From Paramesorhizobium deserti (GTDB taxonomy: Bacteria > Pseudomonadota > Alphaproteobacteria > Rhizobiales > Rhizobiaceae), in assembly GCF_001558695.1 (NCBI RefSeq), contig NZ_LNTU01000041.1:62001-126000 (forward strand): 64,000 bases of DNA, written 5' to 3'. Below, piece after piece: positions 19,365 to 36,499 of the stretch. Positions within the stretch are counted from its first letter, which is position 1, and each line of letters opens with the position of its first letter. The notes beneath the pieces are model-generated. The model made no database searches and was not told the origin of the DNA. It was given only the letters and a program-made list of their open reading frames with translations. Position numbers and translations under genes: made by a program.

Positions 19365-19588
19365 TTTGCTGATGGCACCTGCAATTTTCCAGTGCTGATC
19401 GCTGCTCATGCCAAACCGGATGGACTGACGCTGGGGATCAATACGATGACGCACTTTATGAGCATGCTGACCAATCTGAAGGGGACGTTTGCCGCAGATG
19501 ATTTTTCGTGGATTGCGGCAACGCAGGAAGATCCCATTCTGTATTTCACACGTGCCGATTCCGACATCAAGACACTTGGCGTCCTCCT
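19365..19588 (+). pseudogene. Fragment of a TctC/Bug-type solute-binding protein
   Basis: The plus strand reads FPVLIAAHAKPDGLTLGINT, then MLTNLKG, DDFSWIAATQEDPILYFTR and SDIKTL. These are consecutive blocks of the tripartite tricarboxylate transporter receptor family. Neither the signal peptide nor the second lobe is present. The fragment stops abruptly at about 19588, where a truncated rsbQ copy begins on the opposite strand. Confidence 0.65.
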
Positions 19589-19589
19589 G

Positions 19590-20221
19590 CACTGTAGCAC
19601 GAGCGCCCGCGCCTCCAGGCCCGCCAGATCCTCCCGGTTGTCTGATATGAAGGTTGTGCGGACAAAATGTTTGGCGATCTCGGGATCGGTTCGGCAGAAG
19701 CTGTTGGTCAGCTCCTCGCCAAGCTCGGGCCTGTCAGGGTTGCCCATGATCGCCGGCGCCATCGCCGCGGACCAGCCCATATGATTGCTGTCGAGAAAAT
19801 CGAGCAATTCCTCGATCTGATCCGCGCTGAACCCGCCAATATAGCCGTCGTCGTCAATATAGCGCGGCGACGGGCCGATCAGTACGAGGTTTTCGAAAAG
19901 CTCCCGAGCTTTCTTGGCGGCCAGAATGCCGACCATGGCGCTGACCGAATGTCCCACGAAAACCCCGCCATTGATGTACAGCGCCTGCCCTAGCTCGACG
20001 ATATCGTCGGCATAGCCCGGCAGGTGGTTGTACCTGGCGGGAGAGAAAGCGGACAAATCCGATCCACCCGCACCGACGTTGTCAAACAGGACCGTCCGGA
20101 AGCTGTCCTCGAACGCAGGCGCGATGAAGCGTCACATATTCTGGTCGCAGCTGAAGCCATGGGCGAACATCATCGAGTGCGTGCCCGGGCCCGCGATCTT
20201 CACGTTATTGTGGATGAGCAC
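19590..20221 (-). pseudogene. RsbQ-like alpha/beta hydrolase, truncated with internal stop
   Basis: A paralogue of the intact RsbQ-like gene at 34047. It contains MMFAHGFSCDQNM, VGAGGSDLSAF, the nucleophile elbow VGHSVSAM and IGPSPRYIDDDGYIGGFSAD. Two lesions are visible: a TGA at 20132-20134 replaces the Trp codon in QNMWRF, and the protein is cut after RALVLQC, losing the catalytic His end. The cut coincides with the TctC fragment. The start is uncertain (GTG at 20221). It lies divergently from the HWE kinase gene. Confidence 0.75.
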
Positions 20222-20330
20222 CGACAGCAAGCATCCTCTGGACCTGACGATCCCCGATCGTTTTCATCCACTTAAGGCATCTGATGCGCATTGACGATGC
20301 CAGAGCTGACAACAAAGACGAGTCGATCAC

Positions 20331-20355
20331 GGAACAATTGGCTTGCGCGCGCGTT
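20331..20355 (+). promoter_or_regulatory. EcfG-type general-stress promoter upstream of the HWE kinase gene
   Basis: GGAAC and CGTT are separated by exactly 16 bases, a full match to the alphaproteobacterial EcfG consensus. The site lies about 100 bases upstream of the kinase ATG. The spacer end is very GC-rich, so chance cannot be excluded. Confidence 0.5.
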
Positions 20356-20458: not shown

Positions 20459-22993
20459 ATGTCGAACGTCGAGGAATTTCCAAACGCCTCACGCAGGCTG
20501 ACTGAGTACGATGCCTTCGTCGCTGCCGCACCTACGTTGCTCGAAGCTATACCAGGTGCTGTCTACGTGTGCGATCACGACGGATGGCTTGTGCGTTTCA
20601 ATAAGGAAGCCTCGAAGCTATGGGGAAGGGTCCCGGCAGTTGACGGAGCGAAGGACCGCTTTTGCGGATCCCACCGCTTGTTCCGCCTGGACGGTACCCC
20701 GCTTTCCCCCGACGAATGCCCGATGGCCGAGGCCGTAAGGGCCGGCGTGGCGACACACAATGCTGAAGTCGTGATGGAACGGCCGGACGGCTCTCGAATC
20801 ATTGCCCTTGTGAACATCCGCCCCTTGCGGGACCATCGCGGCCAGATTCAGGGAGCCGTCAACTGCTTCCAGGACATTTCCGAGCGCAAGGCACTGGAAG
20901 GTGAAGTGCGAAGTAAAGCCGCGGACCTCGAAGATTTCTTCGAGAACAGCGCTATAGGTCTTCACATCGTGAGCGGTGAAGGCATTATCCTGCGGGCCAA
21001 CAAGGCAGAGCTCTCCTTGCTTGGCTATGACGCGGACGACTATGTCGGACGCCACATCGCGGAGTTCCACGCCGACGCCCCGGTTATCGGCGATATCCTG
21101 CACCGGCTCTCTTGCGGAGAGAGGCTTGATCGTTATCCCGCGCGATTGCGGGCTCGGGACGGTTCGATCAAGCATGTCTTGATTACCTCGAACAGCCGAT
21201 TCAGCGACGGAAAATTCGTTAATACGCGCTGCTTCACCACCGATGTTACAAGCGTTCATGAGGCTGAGACTGCGCGGCGCGAGAGCGAGGAGCGCTTGGC
21301 GGCTACCTATGAGGCCGCAACCATCGGGATCGCCGAAGCAGACGCGGAGGGCCGGCTGCTTCGCGTTAATGACGCCGTCTGCAAGATGTTGGGACGCTCT
21401 CGCGAAGAGCTCCTGAACATGACGTTCTTCGACTACACGCACGTGGATGACCGTCAGCACGATTCCGCGCTCTACGCGCAGCAGATCCGCGGTGAAATCA
21501 GCCATTACTCCATGCGCAAGCGCGCGGTGCGACCGGATGGAACACTTCGATACCTCGATGTTTCTGGGTCCTGCGTACGGGATGCCTCCGGCCAATTTCG
21601 CTATGGGGTCCGCGTGATCCAGGACGTGACAGAAGCCAAACGCATGGAGGATAAAATCCTTCGGAGCGAACGCCAGATGCGCGAGTTGCTCGAGGCACTG
21701 CCGGCGGCCGTCTACACGACCGACGCCGAGGGAAGGATCACCTTTTTCAACCAGGCTGCGGTCGACATGGCGGGACGGACACCGCGACCAGGAGACAAGT
21801 GGTGCGTCACTTGGCGCCTCTATAATGCGGACGGGACGCCGCTCCCCCACGACCAGTGCCCCATGGCTGTCGCGCTCAAGGAAAATCGACCTGTCCGAGG
21901 GATAGAGGCGGTCGCGGAGCGTCCGGATGGCACACGTGTCCCATTCATCCCCTATCCAACGCCGTTGCGCGATGCCGACGGCAGGCTAGTGGGCGCGATC
22001 AACATGCTGGTCGACGTGACAGAACAGAAAAAGGCCGAAGAGTATGCCGGGCGCCTTGCGGCGATCGTCGAGTTCTCCGACGACGCGATCGTCAGCAAGG
22101 ATGCGCAAGGCGTTATTCAGACCTGGAACGCAGGCGCGGAACGTCTGTTCGGATACGAAGCGGCGGAGGTCATAGGCAAGCCCGTCAACATTCTGATTCC
22201 GCCGGATCGCCAGGAGGAGGAGCCAGAGATCCTCGACCGCATCCGCCGGGGCGACCGTGTCGTTCCCTATGAGACCGTCCGCATGCGCAAGGACGGGAGC
22301 CTCATCGACGTCTCGCTGACGGTCTCGCCTCTCAAGGACGGCCGCGGCAAGGTGATCGGCGCCTCCAAGATTGCAAGGGATATTACCGCCAAGCGCCGCC
22401 ACGAGGAGCGTCGGCAGTTACTGGTCAACGAGCTGAACCATCGGGTGAAGAACACCCTGGCCATGGTTCAGTCTCTGGCCTCACAGTCTTTTCGCGGTGA
22501 GGCGCACAGCCCCGCGTTCCAACAGTTTGAAAGCAGGCTGATTGCTTTGTCGCGCGCCCACGACGTCCTGACCCGCGAGGATTGGGAAGGCATCCAGCTC
22601 GACGAACTGATCGTCCACACGATCGCGCCAATTTGTGTCCGACCTGAGGAGCGCGTTCGGGTTTCGGGGCCTGTCTTGCGTCTCAGGCCGAAACTCGCGC
22701 TCTCACTGTCGATGGCATTTCACGAACTTTGTACAAACGCGGCCAAATACGGCGCCCTGTCAAACGACACCGGCTGCATCGAGATTGATTGGCAAGCCGT
22801 CGGGGCTGACGGGACGCGTCGTCTCCAATTGCGCTGGGAGGAATTTGGTGGGCCGGAAGTCCAGTTGCCGACGCGGAAAGGTTTCGGCAGCCGCCTTCTC
22901 GAGCGTGCGCTTCATCGTGAGTTCGATGCGCAGGTGGCGCTCTCATTCGCGCCCAGCGGGGTGGTGTGTGAAATCGCGATGCCGTTGACATGA
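20459..22993 (+). CDS. Multi-PAS HWE-family sensor histidine kinase
   Basis: A soluble sensor kinase of 844 residues. About five PAS/PAC modules occupy residues 25-645 (for example LEAIPGAVYVCDHDGWLVRF and AAIVEFSDDAIVSKDAQGVI). The kinase core is of the HWE/HisKA_2 type: the H-box ELNHRVKNTLAMVQSLASQS has its His near residue 661, followed by FHELCTNAAKYGALS and the WEE motif (LRWEEFGG). No membrane segment is seen. The next gene is a lone receiver, its likely target. HWE kinases often feed the general stress response, which fits the EcfG-like promoter upstream. Confidence 0.92.
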   Translation: MSNVEEFPNASRRLTEYDAFVAAAPTLLEAIPGAVYVCDHDGWLVRFNKEASKLWGRVPAVDGAKDRFCGSHRLFRLDGTPLSPDECPMAEAVRAGVATHNAEVVMERPDGSRIIALVNIRPLRDHRGQIQGAVNCFQDISERKALEGEVRSKAADLEDFFENSAIGLHIVSGEGIILRANKAELSLLGYDADDYVGRHIAEFHADAPVIGDILHRLSCGERLDRYPARLRARDGSIKHVLITSNSRFSDGKFVNTRCFTTDVTSVHEAETARRESEERLAATYEAATIGIAEADAEGRLLRVNDAVCKMLGRSREELLNMTFFDYTHVDDRQHDSALYAQQIRGEISHYSMRKRAVRPDGTLRYLDVSGSCVRDASGQFRYGVRVIQDVTEAKRMEDKILRSERQMRELLEALPAAVYTTDAEGRITFFNQAAVDMAGRTPRPGDKWCVTWRLYNADGTPLPHDQCPMAVALKENRPVRGIEAVAERPDGTRVPFIPYPTPLRDADGRLVGAINMLVDVTEQKKAEEYAGRLAAIVEFSDDAIVSKDAQGVIQTWNAGAERLFGYEAAEVIGKPVNILIPPDRQEEEPEILDRIRRGDRVVPYETVRMRKDGSLIDVSLTVSPLKDGRGKVIGASKIARDITAKRRHEERRQLLVNELNHRVKNTLAMVQSLASQSFRGEAHSPAFQQFESRLIALSRAHDVLTREDWEGIQLDELIVHTIAPICVRPEERVRVSGPVLRLRPKLALSLSMAFHELCTNAAKYGALSNDTGCIEIDWQAVGADGTRRLQLRWEEFGGPEVQLPTRKGFGSRLLERALHREFDAQVALSFAPSGVVCEIAMPLT

Positions 22994-33369: not shown

Positions 33370-34046
33370 GAGTGTACCTGTTTGCTGAAGATCTAACTCG
33401 CGGATCGGCAAAGCGTTGCGCCAGATGGCGAAGAATGTCTGACTTGAGGGGATGTGCGAACGACACCGATGAATGAGAGCTTAGCAAAGCACCTGCCCCA
33501 TCCGGCTACGTCCGATGGCCACAATATGGAGGAAAACAGCGGGGCCAGTTTGCCCGCTATCGGAGCAGGGGGCTGTCGCGTTCTCTGCAAGTTCGCCATT
33601 CACAGAGCACGGCAATTTCCCGCGGGTAATAGATAAAGGTCGTGGACAGGAGTACCTTGCGGGAACGACCAGCATCATGCAAAAGGCGTCGATTGGGCAG
33701 AGTTGGTGTTCGCTTGAACCTGCTTCCAACAATCTATGCTGCTTCATAGGTCGCCGGCGGTCGCTCTCACGATGCGCCCTCGACCTGTAAAGAACGGGCA
33801 TATCGGTGGACGCTGCGCGGATTCCCCCGTCGATGCGGCAGGACTTAATCTTCAACTGCAAATCGGTACTACATGGGCAAGCAGGCCAGCCCATGCCTTC
33901 CTGTTGCTTCGGATGCGCATTTCCACCGAGCTAGACGCTAACGCGATGAGGCATCGATTCGACGCCGTGTGCATTCTCCCTATATCTGTTGCCAACGAGA
34001 CCATGTCCAGCAGCTGGTCTCTCGCACACGAAGCGGAGTTTGCGTT
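33370..34046. other. Intergenic region between divergent genes
   Basis: About 680 bases between the AI-2E transporter gene and the rsbQ gene. Frames of up to 137 codons occur but match no family and overlap on opposite strands. No clear promoter consensus of the EcfG type was found here. Confidence 0.45.
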
Positions 34047-34871
34047 TTGAATGTATTGAGGCGAAACAATGTAAGGGTAGTAGGCTCCGGGGGCAGGGCG
34101 ATGGTTTTCGCCCATGGCTTCGGTTGCGATCAGAACATGTGGCGCTTTGTCTGGCCTGCCTTTGCCGAAGAGTACCGCATTGTCTTGTTCGACCACGTCG
34201 GTTGCGGCGGTTCCGATCTGAGAGCCTACGATATCGGCAAGTATGCCTCGCTCGAGGGCTATGCTGACGACGTGATCGCGATCTGCCGCGAACTTGACCT
34301 TACCCATAGCATTTTCGTCGGCCATTCAGTCAGCGCAATGATCGGAGCGATTGCTTCCATTCAGGTACCTGAGCTCTTCGACGAGCTCATCATGATTGGC
34401 CCATCACCTCGCTATATCGACGACGACGACTATACCGGTGGATTTAGCGAAGCGCAGGTCCATGAACTCCTCGAGTTCCTCGACGACAACCATATGGGAT
34501 GGTCGCAGGCAATGGCCCCCGTGATCATGGGCAATCCCGACCGGCCGGAACTCGGCCAGGAGCTTGCCAACTCTTTCTGCATGACGGACCCGGAAATTGC
34601 CAAGCGCTTCGCCCGGGTTACCTTCCTTTCCGACAACCGCGCCGACCTTGATCGCGTTACCGCCCGCGCTCTCGTGCTGCAGTGCCACGAGGATGTGATC
34701 GCCCCACCGGCCGTGGGCGCCTATGTTCACCAGCGTGTTTCCAACAGCGCGTTCGTTCTCCTCAACGCCACTGGTCATTGTCCCAATCTCAGCGCGCCCG
34801 AGGAAACAATCTTGGCGATGAAGATCTTTCTCGCAGGAGAGAGGTCGGCCGCGCAGAATGTAGGGCCATGA
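34047..34871 (+). CDS. RsbQ-like alpha/beta hydrolase
   Basis: An alpha/beta hydrolase of the RsbQ/KAI2 group, 274 residues. It begins LRRNNVRVVGSGGRAMVFAH, has the oxyanion region HGFGCDQNMWRF, nucleophile Ser in VGHSVSAM, the acid in HEDVIAPP and the His in ATGHCPNLS. No ATG exists at the expected position; TTG at 34047 with a GGAG upstream is the best start. Its stop overlaps the ATG of a PAS-domain kinase (ATGA). In Bacillus RsbQ works with the PAS protein RsbP, probably by providing or processing its ligand. The same partnership is inferred here. Confidence 0.88.
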   Translation: MNVLRRNNVRVVGSGGRAMVFAHGFGCDQNMWRFVWPAFAEEYRIVLFDHVGCGGSDLRAYDIGKYASLEGYADDVIAICRELDLTHSIFVGHSVSAMIGAIASIQVPELFDELIMIGPSPRYIDDDDYTGGFSEAQVHELLEFLDDNHMGWSQAMAPVIMGNPDRPELGQELANSFCMTDPEIAKRFARVTFLSDNRADLDRVTARALVLQCHEDVIAPPAVGAYVHQRVSNSAFVLLNATGHCPNLSAPEETILAMKIFLAGERSAAQNVGP

Positions 34872-36499
34872 ACCAGCTGATCGAGGACCTTGAGGATCTA
34901 TTCGACAACGCTCCGTGCGGCTATGTCTCAACGGGACCAGGCGGACATATCATAATGGCCAATCGCATCTTCGCCGATTGGCTCGGCCGCGCGCGATCCG
35001 ACATCATCGGGCGGCGCTTTCAGGACTTCCTGAACATCGCCGGAAAAATGTATTATGAAACTCATTTCGCACCCCTCATGCGCATGCAGGGTTTTTTCCA
35101 TGAGGTGGCCCTTGACCTAGTGCGTGCCGACGGCAGTAAGCTTCCGGTACTCGTCAATGCCGTTGAACGCCGCGACGAAAAGGGCGCGCTGAGCTTCGTC
35201 CGCATCACAATCTTCAACGCGTCCGACCGACGTCGATACGAGCGCGAACTGCTTGAAGCCCGTCGTTGCGCCGAGAAGGCCAATGCCGAGCTTCAGAACC
35301 TCAACCGCACGCTGGAGGAGCGCATCGCGGAGGCTGTCGAGGCCCGGATGAAATCGGAAGCGGCGTTGCGGCAGGCCCAGAAGATGGAAGCCGTCGGTCA
35401 GCTAACAGGTGGCATAGCCCATGACTTCAACAATATGCTTGCGGTTGTCTTTTCGGCGCTCAATCTTCTTGAACGCCGTCTCGCGAAGGGCGAGGACGTT
35501 TCCCATTTCATCGCCGCGGCCAAGGACGGAGCCGGTCGTGCAGCGGCGCTGACCCAACGTTTGCTTGCGTTCTCTCGCCAGCAGGCGCTCGCTCCCGAGC
35601 CCATTTGCGCCAACCAGATGGTGGCCGGTATGTCTGACCTGCTGCACCACACGCTGGGCGAAATGGTTCGGCTGGAGACGGTGCTTGCCGAGGATCTTTG
35701 GCAGGTTTTGGCGGACAAGAATGTGCTGGAAAATGTCGTCCTCAACTTGGCAATCAACGCGCGTGACGCCATGCCTCACGGCGGCCGGCTCGTGATCGAG
35801 ACCGCCAATTCCCACCTGGACGAGGCCTACGGCGCAGAGCACGACGTAAAGCCGGGGCAATATGTGATGGTCGCCGTCACCGACACGGGTGTCGGCATGT
35901 CACCTGAGGTCATGGCCAAGGCGTTCGATCCGTTCTTCACCACCAAAGAACCCGGAAGGGGCACCGGGCTGGGACTTAGCCAGGTTTTCGGCTTCGTGAA
36001 GCAGTCTGAAGGCCACATAACAGTCAATTCCGCGCTCGGTCGAGGCACGTCCATAACAATCTATCTGCCTCGATATTCCGGTGCACCCGAGGCGCGAAAC
36101 CATTCGGAAGCACAAATGCCCGTCTGTGGGAACGGCTCAGAAACGGTGCTAGTCGTGGAGGATGACGAGCAGGTGTTGACGCTTACGGCCCAGATGCTGC
36201 GCGACCTCGGCTACCACGTGGTCGAGGCGCGATGTGGAGAAGAGGCACTGGGTGCTCTCTCCGCTGTACCCGCAATCGGCCTCCTTTTTACGGATGTGGT
36301 GATGCCGGATATTAACGGCCTCCGTCTTGCCGAGGCGGCGCTTGAGCGAAGGCCAGACTTGAAAATCCTATTCACGACCGGCTATTCACGGGATGCTGTT
36401 GTGCACAATCGTTTGCTCGACCCTGGCGTCAACCTGCTGCAAAAGCCCGCCTCGCTGGAGCAACTTGCTGCAAAGGTCAGAACATTACTGGATGGTTAG
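34868..36499 (+). CDS. PAS hybrid sensor histidine kinase with receiver domain
   Basis: A soluble hybrid kinase of 543 residues starting at the ATG that overlaps the rsbQ stop. Order of domains: PAS at about 5-125 (LFDNAPCGYVSTGPGGHIIM), a coiled coil at about 125-165, HisKA with QLTGGIAHDFNNMLAVV near 180, HATPase (NLAINARDAMP, DTGVGMSPEV, GRGTGLGLSQVFG) and a C-terminal receiver near 420-540 with ELLFTDVVMPD-like Asp (LLFTDVVMPDINGL), TTGYS and LQKPASL. No output domain is present, so a further phosphotransfer partner is expected. The RsbQ-like hydrolase encoded first probably supplies the PAS ligand. Confidence 0.92.
   Translation: MNQLIEDLEDLFDNAPCGYVSTGPGGHIIMANRIFADWLGRARSDIIGRRFQDFLNIAGKMYYETHFAPLMRMQGFFHEVALDLVRADGSKLPVLVNAVERRDEKGALSFVRITIFNASDRRRYERELLEARRCAEKANAELQNLNRTLEERIAEAVEARMKSEAALRQAQKMEAVGQLTGGIAHDFNNMLAVVFSALNLLERRLAKGEDVSHFIAAAKDGAGRAAALTQRLLAFSRQQALAPEPICANQMVAGMSDLLHHTLGEMVRLETVLAEDLWQVLADKNVLENVVLNLAINARDAMPHGGRLVIETANSHLDEAYGAEHDVKPGQYVMVAVTDTGVGMSPEVMAKAFDPFFTTKEPGRGTGLGLSQVFGFVKQSEGHITVNSALGRGTSITIYLPRYSGAPEARNHSEAQMPVCGNGSETVLVVEDDEQVLTLTAQMLRDLGYHVVEARCGEEALGALSAVPAIGLLFTDVVMPDINGLRLAEAALERRPDLKILFTTGYSRDAVVHNRLLDPGVNLLQKPASLEQLAAKVRTLLDG

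Follow-up and report, generated by a model that had tools for sequence, protein, structure and literature searches.

The 64,000-nucleotide stretch of Paramesorhizobium deserti DNA analysed here (the window; contig C41 of the 5.48 Mb source genome, G000) carries an intact and typical RsbQ-PAS module of the hybrid kinase class, wherein a gene for an α/β hydrolase directly precedes, and overlaps, a gene for a histidine kinase with an RsbP-type PAS domain at its N terminus and a receiver domain at its C terminus. The idea of pairing RsbQ with a PAS kinase is not new, and modules of this kind were already published in 2011. In the sections covered of that paper (Nadezhdin, Brody and Price, 2011; PMC3183031), 45 RsbP-type PAS domains are encoded downstream of rsbQ, and the outputs of these pairs are phosphatases, kinases (three of them with a receiver, and hence hybrid) and diguanylate cyclases. 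To this published kind, the present analysis adds scale, a test of correlated divergence, one natural fusion and a separate receiver in sphingomonads.

Anatomy of the module in the window

The rsbQ gene (positions 34047..34871, + strand) encodes a predicted hydrolase of 274 amino acids that belongs to the RsbQ/KAI2/D14 family. Its reading frame opens with a GTG at 33969, homology sets in at a TTG at 34047, which is the putative start, and the stop is the TGA at 34869-34871. A preliminary description of this DNA had called the product an RsbQ-type hydrolase, an assignment borne out by intact catalytic residues and by the top structure match, Bacillus subtilis RsbQ (PDB 1wom; E 6.9e-94, residues 2-259), which ranks ahead of Olei00960 (3qvm), followed by the plant KAI2 and D14 proteins. 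Residues S94, D216 and H244 are all present, and they are invariant in 95 of 95 aligned relatives that are linked and dereplicated; from the 1wom alignment, we take them to be the equivalents of the RsbQ triad S96/D219/H247. Both sequence kinship and this Ser-Asp-His triad place the predicted hydrolase in the RsbQ family. Of the named matches, at least 584 in number, the best 80 were kept, and the nearest of these is the rsbQ of Mesorhizobium sp. RMAD-H1 (97%). The DNA of this strain matches the window at 96% identity over 27.4-42.1 kb, as two separate pieces.

The stop codon of rsbQ and the start codon of the kinase gene overlap by ATGA, as had been described: the kinase ATG lies at 34868, and the bases shared are 34868..34871 (+ strand). 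The kinase gene (34868..36499, + strand) encodes 543 amino acids comprising an RsbP-type PAS domain, a long helix, a CckA-like DHp/CA core and a receiver. Its Pfam domains are PAS_9, HisKA (26.1 bits against a cut-off of 26.9), HATPase_c and Response_reg. The earlier reading of the protein as a histidine kinase with a receiver and no output domain agrees with this domain search, because everything else at E <= 0.01 is either an overlapping PAS model or a single HPTransfase match (E 0.0037), which falls under its cut-off and lies inside the HATPase region. The motifs HDFNN, NARDAMP, DTGVGM, GTGLGL, VVEDDE, TDVVMPD and QKP are all present, as would be expected of a functional kinase and receiver. 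The H-box HDFNN (35420..35434, + strand) holds the predicted phospho-acceptor His185, and the C-terminal receiver (36146..36481, + strand) holds the predicted phospho-acceptor Asp476 within TDVVMPD.

The PAS domain (residues 1-118; 34868..35221, + strand) carries an APCG motif (C17) and is itself followed by ASDRRRYERE, and a predicted helix at residues 57-74 (35036..35089, + strand) with a conserved YETHFAP stretch is the F-alpha helix by position. Positions C17, N32, P69 and E79 are conserved at 90-100% across 96 rows. The domain carries the residues named for RsbP-PAS domains (the hPCG cysteine, the F-alpha stretch, and the conserved Pro and Glu) and no DIT motif, when it is mapped to B. 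subtilis numbering by a constant offset of 7 inferred from the residues named in the covered text of PMC3183031. A search of its sequence against the PDB yielded no convincing match (best E 0.085). In a monomer AlphaFold2 model built from 42 sequences (mean pLDDT 80.2, pTM 0.42), the PAS blocks reach pLDDT 89-94, with the first block at 72. A long helix (residues 118-205; 35219..35482, + strand) runs from the PAS domain to the phospho-acceptor region, with pLDDT 86-93 to approximately residue 160 and 60-70 beyond, and the DHp part is of low confidence. The features of the published module are found together in the window: an RsbQ homologue encoded directly upstream, the RsbP-type PAS residues, a helical linker to the output (modelled with high confidence to residue 160 only) and the RsbQ triad, with direct RsbQ-PAS contact established for B. 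subtilis only.

The window also holds a second, dead rsbQ (19490..20224, - strand), as had been noted before. It is 56% identical to the live gene and has one internal TGA, and an RsbP-type PAS was not found alongside it. Its 3' part is lost, so that homology stops at approximately residue 213 and the Asp and His of the triad are missing. In the preliminary description, this gene and an adjoining multi-PAS kinase were offered as a second example of a recurring theme, and this proposal fails. The neighbour is a divergently oriented HWE kinase gene (20459..22993, + strand) whose five PAS matches reach only 17-47 bits against a model of the module PAS versus 183 bits for the true partner, and by PAS type it is not an RsbQ partner. 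Across the whole genome, the next best match to the module PAS after the true partner has 26.4 bits. We reject the pair as a module also because the PAS lies downstream of rsbQ in the 95 linked groups described below and in the pairs of PMC3183031, as far as that paper was covered. On a tree of RsbQ sequences, the rows nearest to the dead gene are other hybrid-type rsbQs (top identity 75%, locus L087) rather than the live copy, with no starred placement, so that recent duplication does not seem to be its origin. A broader association of HWE/PAS kinases with rsbQ came down to a single BLAST cluster, present in 13 loci, with mixed sizes and strands, for which we make no claim.

Linkage and correlated divergence of RsbQ and its PAS partner

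Our survey covers 134 rsbQ loci (80 named ones, the top-ranking of at least 584, and 54 from genome searches) that were chosen by RsbQ alone and joined at 88% identity into 111 groups. The genome matches G295, G376, G112, G466, G923 and G951 were taken as loci L102, L100, L120, L105, L128 and L130, respectively; the counts leave aside matches G270, G1150 and G1191, the second contig end of G015, and matches first met in a 59-genome family search around genome G1175. The gene has a patchy distribution. Of the genomes drawn, 26 of 397 from the order, 11 of 385 from the class, 16 of 199 from the family and 20 of 398 from the phylum carry it at E <= 1e-40; these draws overlap and include the window's own genome.

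A locus was considered linked if the region directly downstream encodes a PAS domain that scores more than 50 bits with the module model, and four loci without room for one were excluded. An RsbP-type PAS occupies this position in 80 of the 81 groups whose RsbQ is >= 60% identical, in all 15 at 45-60%, in 3 of the 6 at 39-45% and in none of the 6 below 39%. The neighbourhood survey that the preliminary description had proposed thus finds conserved linkage, in 95 of 96 groups at >= 45% RsbQ identity. In the lone exception (L195), a PAS of 171 bits is found at +1406, beyond a 299-residue open reading frame with rve and HTH_21 transposase domains; the partner set apart in this way is a PAS kinase, and the rsbQ of this locus is shortened. 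No RsbP-type PAS partner was found downstream at L204, L206 and L178 (approximately 40% RsbQ identity), the first two of which are rsbQ relatives from genomes of the same phylum as the window. The PAS model is tuned to the surveyed partners, because it was built iteratively from the window PAS on the very downstream proteins surveyed. The groups below 39% serve as one control for it; in another, the window's other PAS domains score 17-47 and 1-13 bits versus 183.

Several further observations concern individual loci. The commonest neighbour cluster (22 loci, on the opposite strand and overlapping rsbQ by position) was set aside as an antisense-frame artefact. The partners at L134 and L186 look broken, because their kinase part is scattered across different frames, and at L111 the partner PAS lies in a frame other than the one scanned.

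The coupling of the rsbQ and PAS genes is beyond chance, because in all 95 linked groups the distance from the rsbQ stop to the onset of PAS homology is between -5 and +109 nucleotides (median 41), a measure that is free of start-codon choice. The genes themselves overlap in 47 of 95 pairs, a count that is biased high because the start chosen was the ATG nearest to a 4-nucleotide overlap.

Across 81 kinase-type loci, with distances not corrected for common descent, the correlation of RsbQ distance is r = 0.84 with PAS distance and 0.47 with kinase core distance; the former value is reached by 0 of 2000 permutations, and the partial correlations are 0.81 and 0.27. Within the window's hybrid subtype (n = 21), the values are 0.79 for PAS and 0.36 for the kinase core (bootstrap difference 0.10 to 0.68), whereas HDLRNP non-hybrids (n = 49) exhibit no clear difference (0.78 versus 0.67; -0.06 to 0.31). 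By these sequence distances, PAS divergence tracks that of RsbQ more closely than kinase core divergence, and clearly so only within the window's hybrid type.

One locus goes further and joins the partners in a single chain. In genome G1175, from the same phylum, an RsbQ-PAS-GGDEF fusion (L205/L215) occupies one 585-residue frame with no stop. This genome carries two rsbQ copies, of which the second (L222) is not fused. When more fusions were sought in 59 genomes of its family, L216 and L222 proved full-length with two open reading frames each, and in the partial match L220 rsbQ is a separate frame; the fusion is therefore a single case from one genome. No fusion is mentioned in the portions of the 2011 paper covered here (PMC3183031). 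Taken together, the anatomy, the linkage, the PAS type, the correlated divergence and one natural fusion are shown for the module.

Output domains and receivers

Partner proteins differ in their outputs. A Pfam tally of 100 proteins (99 of 103 partner references, with L074, L077, L107 and L151 omitted, plus the window protein) gives HATPase_c 80, HisKA 80, Response_reg 27, GGDEF 9, SpoIIE 4 and EAL 3; the set includes a few non-partners, namely the wrong frame of L111, the L195 transposase and the low-identity loci. A quick-method tree of 97 RsbQ rows, in which 38 of 94 inner branches are weak, served to place the output types, which were labelled by motif search and in some cases by eye. The window's type, a kinase with an HDFNN H-box and a receiver, accounts for 23 rows. 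Because the output types need at least 16 changes on this tree versus a mean of 42.2 when shuffled, outputs are passed on within clades, and yet have been swapped several times.

A different, non-hybrid kinase occurs in five sphingomonad rows, which make up a starred branch (97) within the hybrid part of the tree, although support for the forks around it is weak (85-90). Four of the five (L106, L123, L132 and L146) have a stand-alone receiver gene that follows the rsbQ-PAS-kinase genes on the same strand. Tardiphaga (L133), which lies elsewhere on the tree, likewise has a stand-alone receiver gene of the same family, on the same strand, after a non-hybrid pair. These separate receiver genes behind non-hybrid pairs suggest that the receiver is part of the pathway. 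In 45 of 49 HDLRNP rows, however, a same-strand receiver of that family was not found directly behind the kinase, which counts against this reading.

Possible mechanisms and related systems

By analogy with B. subtilis, from which both points are inferred, RsbQ of the window pair probably acts by direct contact with the PAS domain, in a manner for which its active site matters. In B. subtilis, the F-alpha helix of RsbP is required for contact with RsbQ, the F55A change blocks both contact and signalling, and the RsbQ triad is required according to earlier work cited there (PMC3183031, in the sections covered). RsbQ would perceive or convert a small molecule through its intact active site and dock on the PAS domain at the F-alpha helix, and the resulting change would travel along helix 118-205 to the CckA-like kinase core. 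Phosphorylation of His185 would be altered and, judging from the domain order, that of Asp476 in the fused receiver as well, from which the phosphate may pass to some phosphotransferase or regulator. The general proposal of the preliminary description, that RsbQ and PAS form a two-part sensor feeding the kinase, is supported, and it was already in print in the covered text of PMC3183031.

How the hydrolase would contribute can be read in two ways, and both models, ligand delivery and ligand sensing by the hydrolase, were kept in the 2011 paper in the parts covered (PMC3183031). In the first, which the preliminary description had also adopted, RsbQ turns over a metabolite and the product reaches the PAS pocket as a signal or cofactor. 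The triad that is invariant in 95 of 95 linked RsbQ proteins and required in B. subtilis fits this possibility, whereas no ligand or cofactor had been found on RsbP-PAS as of 2011 (PMC3183031, as covered), and we place its chances somewhat short of even.

KAI2 and D14 are receptors with the same catalytic triad as RsbQ. The invariant triad therefore does not choose between the models, and in the second the active site of RsbQ binds the signal and the PAS contact changes, as in KAI2 and D14, with hydrolysis serving only as a reset. Kinship with these receptors, the correlated divergence of RsbQ and PAS, and their fusion in one chain are all consistent with a receptor. However, these data equally fit delivery of a ligand by contact, and no bacterial ligand was found in the literature covered; this model is likewise quite conceivable without being probable. 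A more specific conjecture extends it: kinase-type RsbQ modules may be KAI2/D14-like receptors, perhaps for a butenolide-like or plant-derived signal, that can drive any output paired with the PAS domain, while the receiver stays fixed, fused in the hybrids and separate in the kinase-swapped sphingomonads. We offer this only as speculation that is rather unlikely to hold in full.

The module might instead govern EcfG/PhyR, the general stress response of alphaproteobacteria, in the way that RsbQP controls sigma-B in Bacillus. The window looks like a general-stress gene island. It contains nine GGAAC-N17-GTT sites, presumably EcfG-like promoters by their consensus, at 20331(+), 22125(+), 24249(+), 28397(+), 31010(-), 36578(+), 41747(-), 44556(-) and 44835(-), versus a single one over 100 kb of the contig; with spacings of 14-19 pooled, there are 16 matches versus 8.8 expected, and 3 of 100 shuffles reach 16. 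Five sites lie just 5' of genes for an HWE kinase, a DUF892 protein, an alpha-amylase family protein, a DUF378 protein and a Mn-catalase, and one lies inside the HWE kinase gene. Resemblance to the window's own genes also identifies DUF892-like genes within 8 kb of rsbQ at L115, L124, L128, L134, L143, L164 and L186 (raw count 7) and catalase-like genes at L106, L115, L124 and L195 (raw count 4). The dense sites, some of them before stress-type genes, and the recurrence of DUF892 and catalase genes in 7 and 4 other loci speak for stress control. Against it, no such site precedes the window's rsbQ, and an EcfG-like promoter is found in 1 of 110 rsbQ upstream regions from all phyla versus 3 of 110 when the reverse strand is read. 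The window kinase is also HisKA/CckA-like and not of the HWE type, which is the kinase type associated with PhyR. We consider control of this response improbable.

Finally, RsbQ could be a metabolic esterase that is merely co-transcribed with a kinase that senses alone, a reading left room by the fact that open-access titles and abstract openings yielded no experiment on kinase-type modules, yet made very improbable by linkage across several phyla with swapped outputs, by a PAS type specific to rsbQ neighbours (here and in the covered sections of PMC3183031) and by the natural RsbQ-PAS-GGDEF fusion.

Which signal RsbQ reads is a standing question, as is the endogenous ligand of KAI2, its relative in plants, which is called undiscovered in the abstract of PMC10504578. 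A soluble hybrid kinase that carries a receiver and is encoded together with its hydrolase would be a handy phosphorylation-assay system for finding such a signal, and the RsbQ-PAS-GGDEF fusion offers a single chain for solving the RsbQ-PAS contact. Both the linkage and the correlated divergence lend weight to the 2011 proposal (PMC3183031, as covered).

Among known systems, CckA resembles the kinase core: its solved DHp-CA region (5idj) is 44% identical to the window kinase over 239 alignment columns. Core and receiver together match the NCBIfam CckA model at 399.6 bits, far under the full-protein cut-off of 1000 and too low for assignment to CckA itself, and the window kinase differs in its input, an RsbP-type PAS domain. 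The plant hormone receptors KAI2 and D14 share the hydrolase family of the window RsbQ according to the structure matches, and the partner in the window differs in being a PAS kinase. RsbQ-RsbP of B. subtilis has a like RsbQ (1wom, E 6.9e-94) and, by the features named in the covered text of PMC3183031, a like PAS type; there the output is a PPM phosphatase with a link to sigma-B, whereas the window has a hybrid kinase and no sigma-B link. The closest likeness is with the published RsbQ-PAS hybrid kinase class, which has the same order of rsbQ, N-terminal RsbP-type PAS without a DIT motif, helical linker, histidine kinase and C-terminal receiver. Unlike the Mesorhizobium sp. member (Q11AY1), whose PAS is split from its own kinase by a frameshift (PMC3183031, as covered), the copy in the window is intact.
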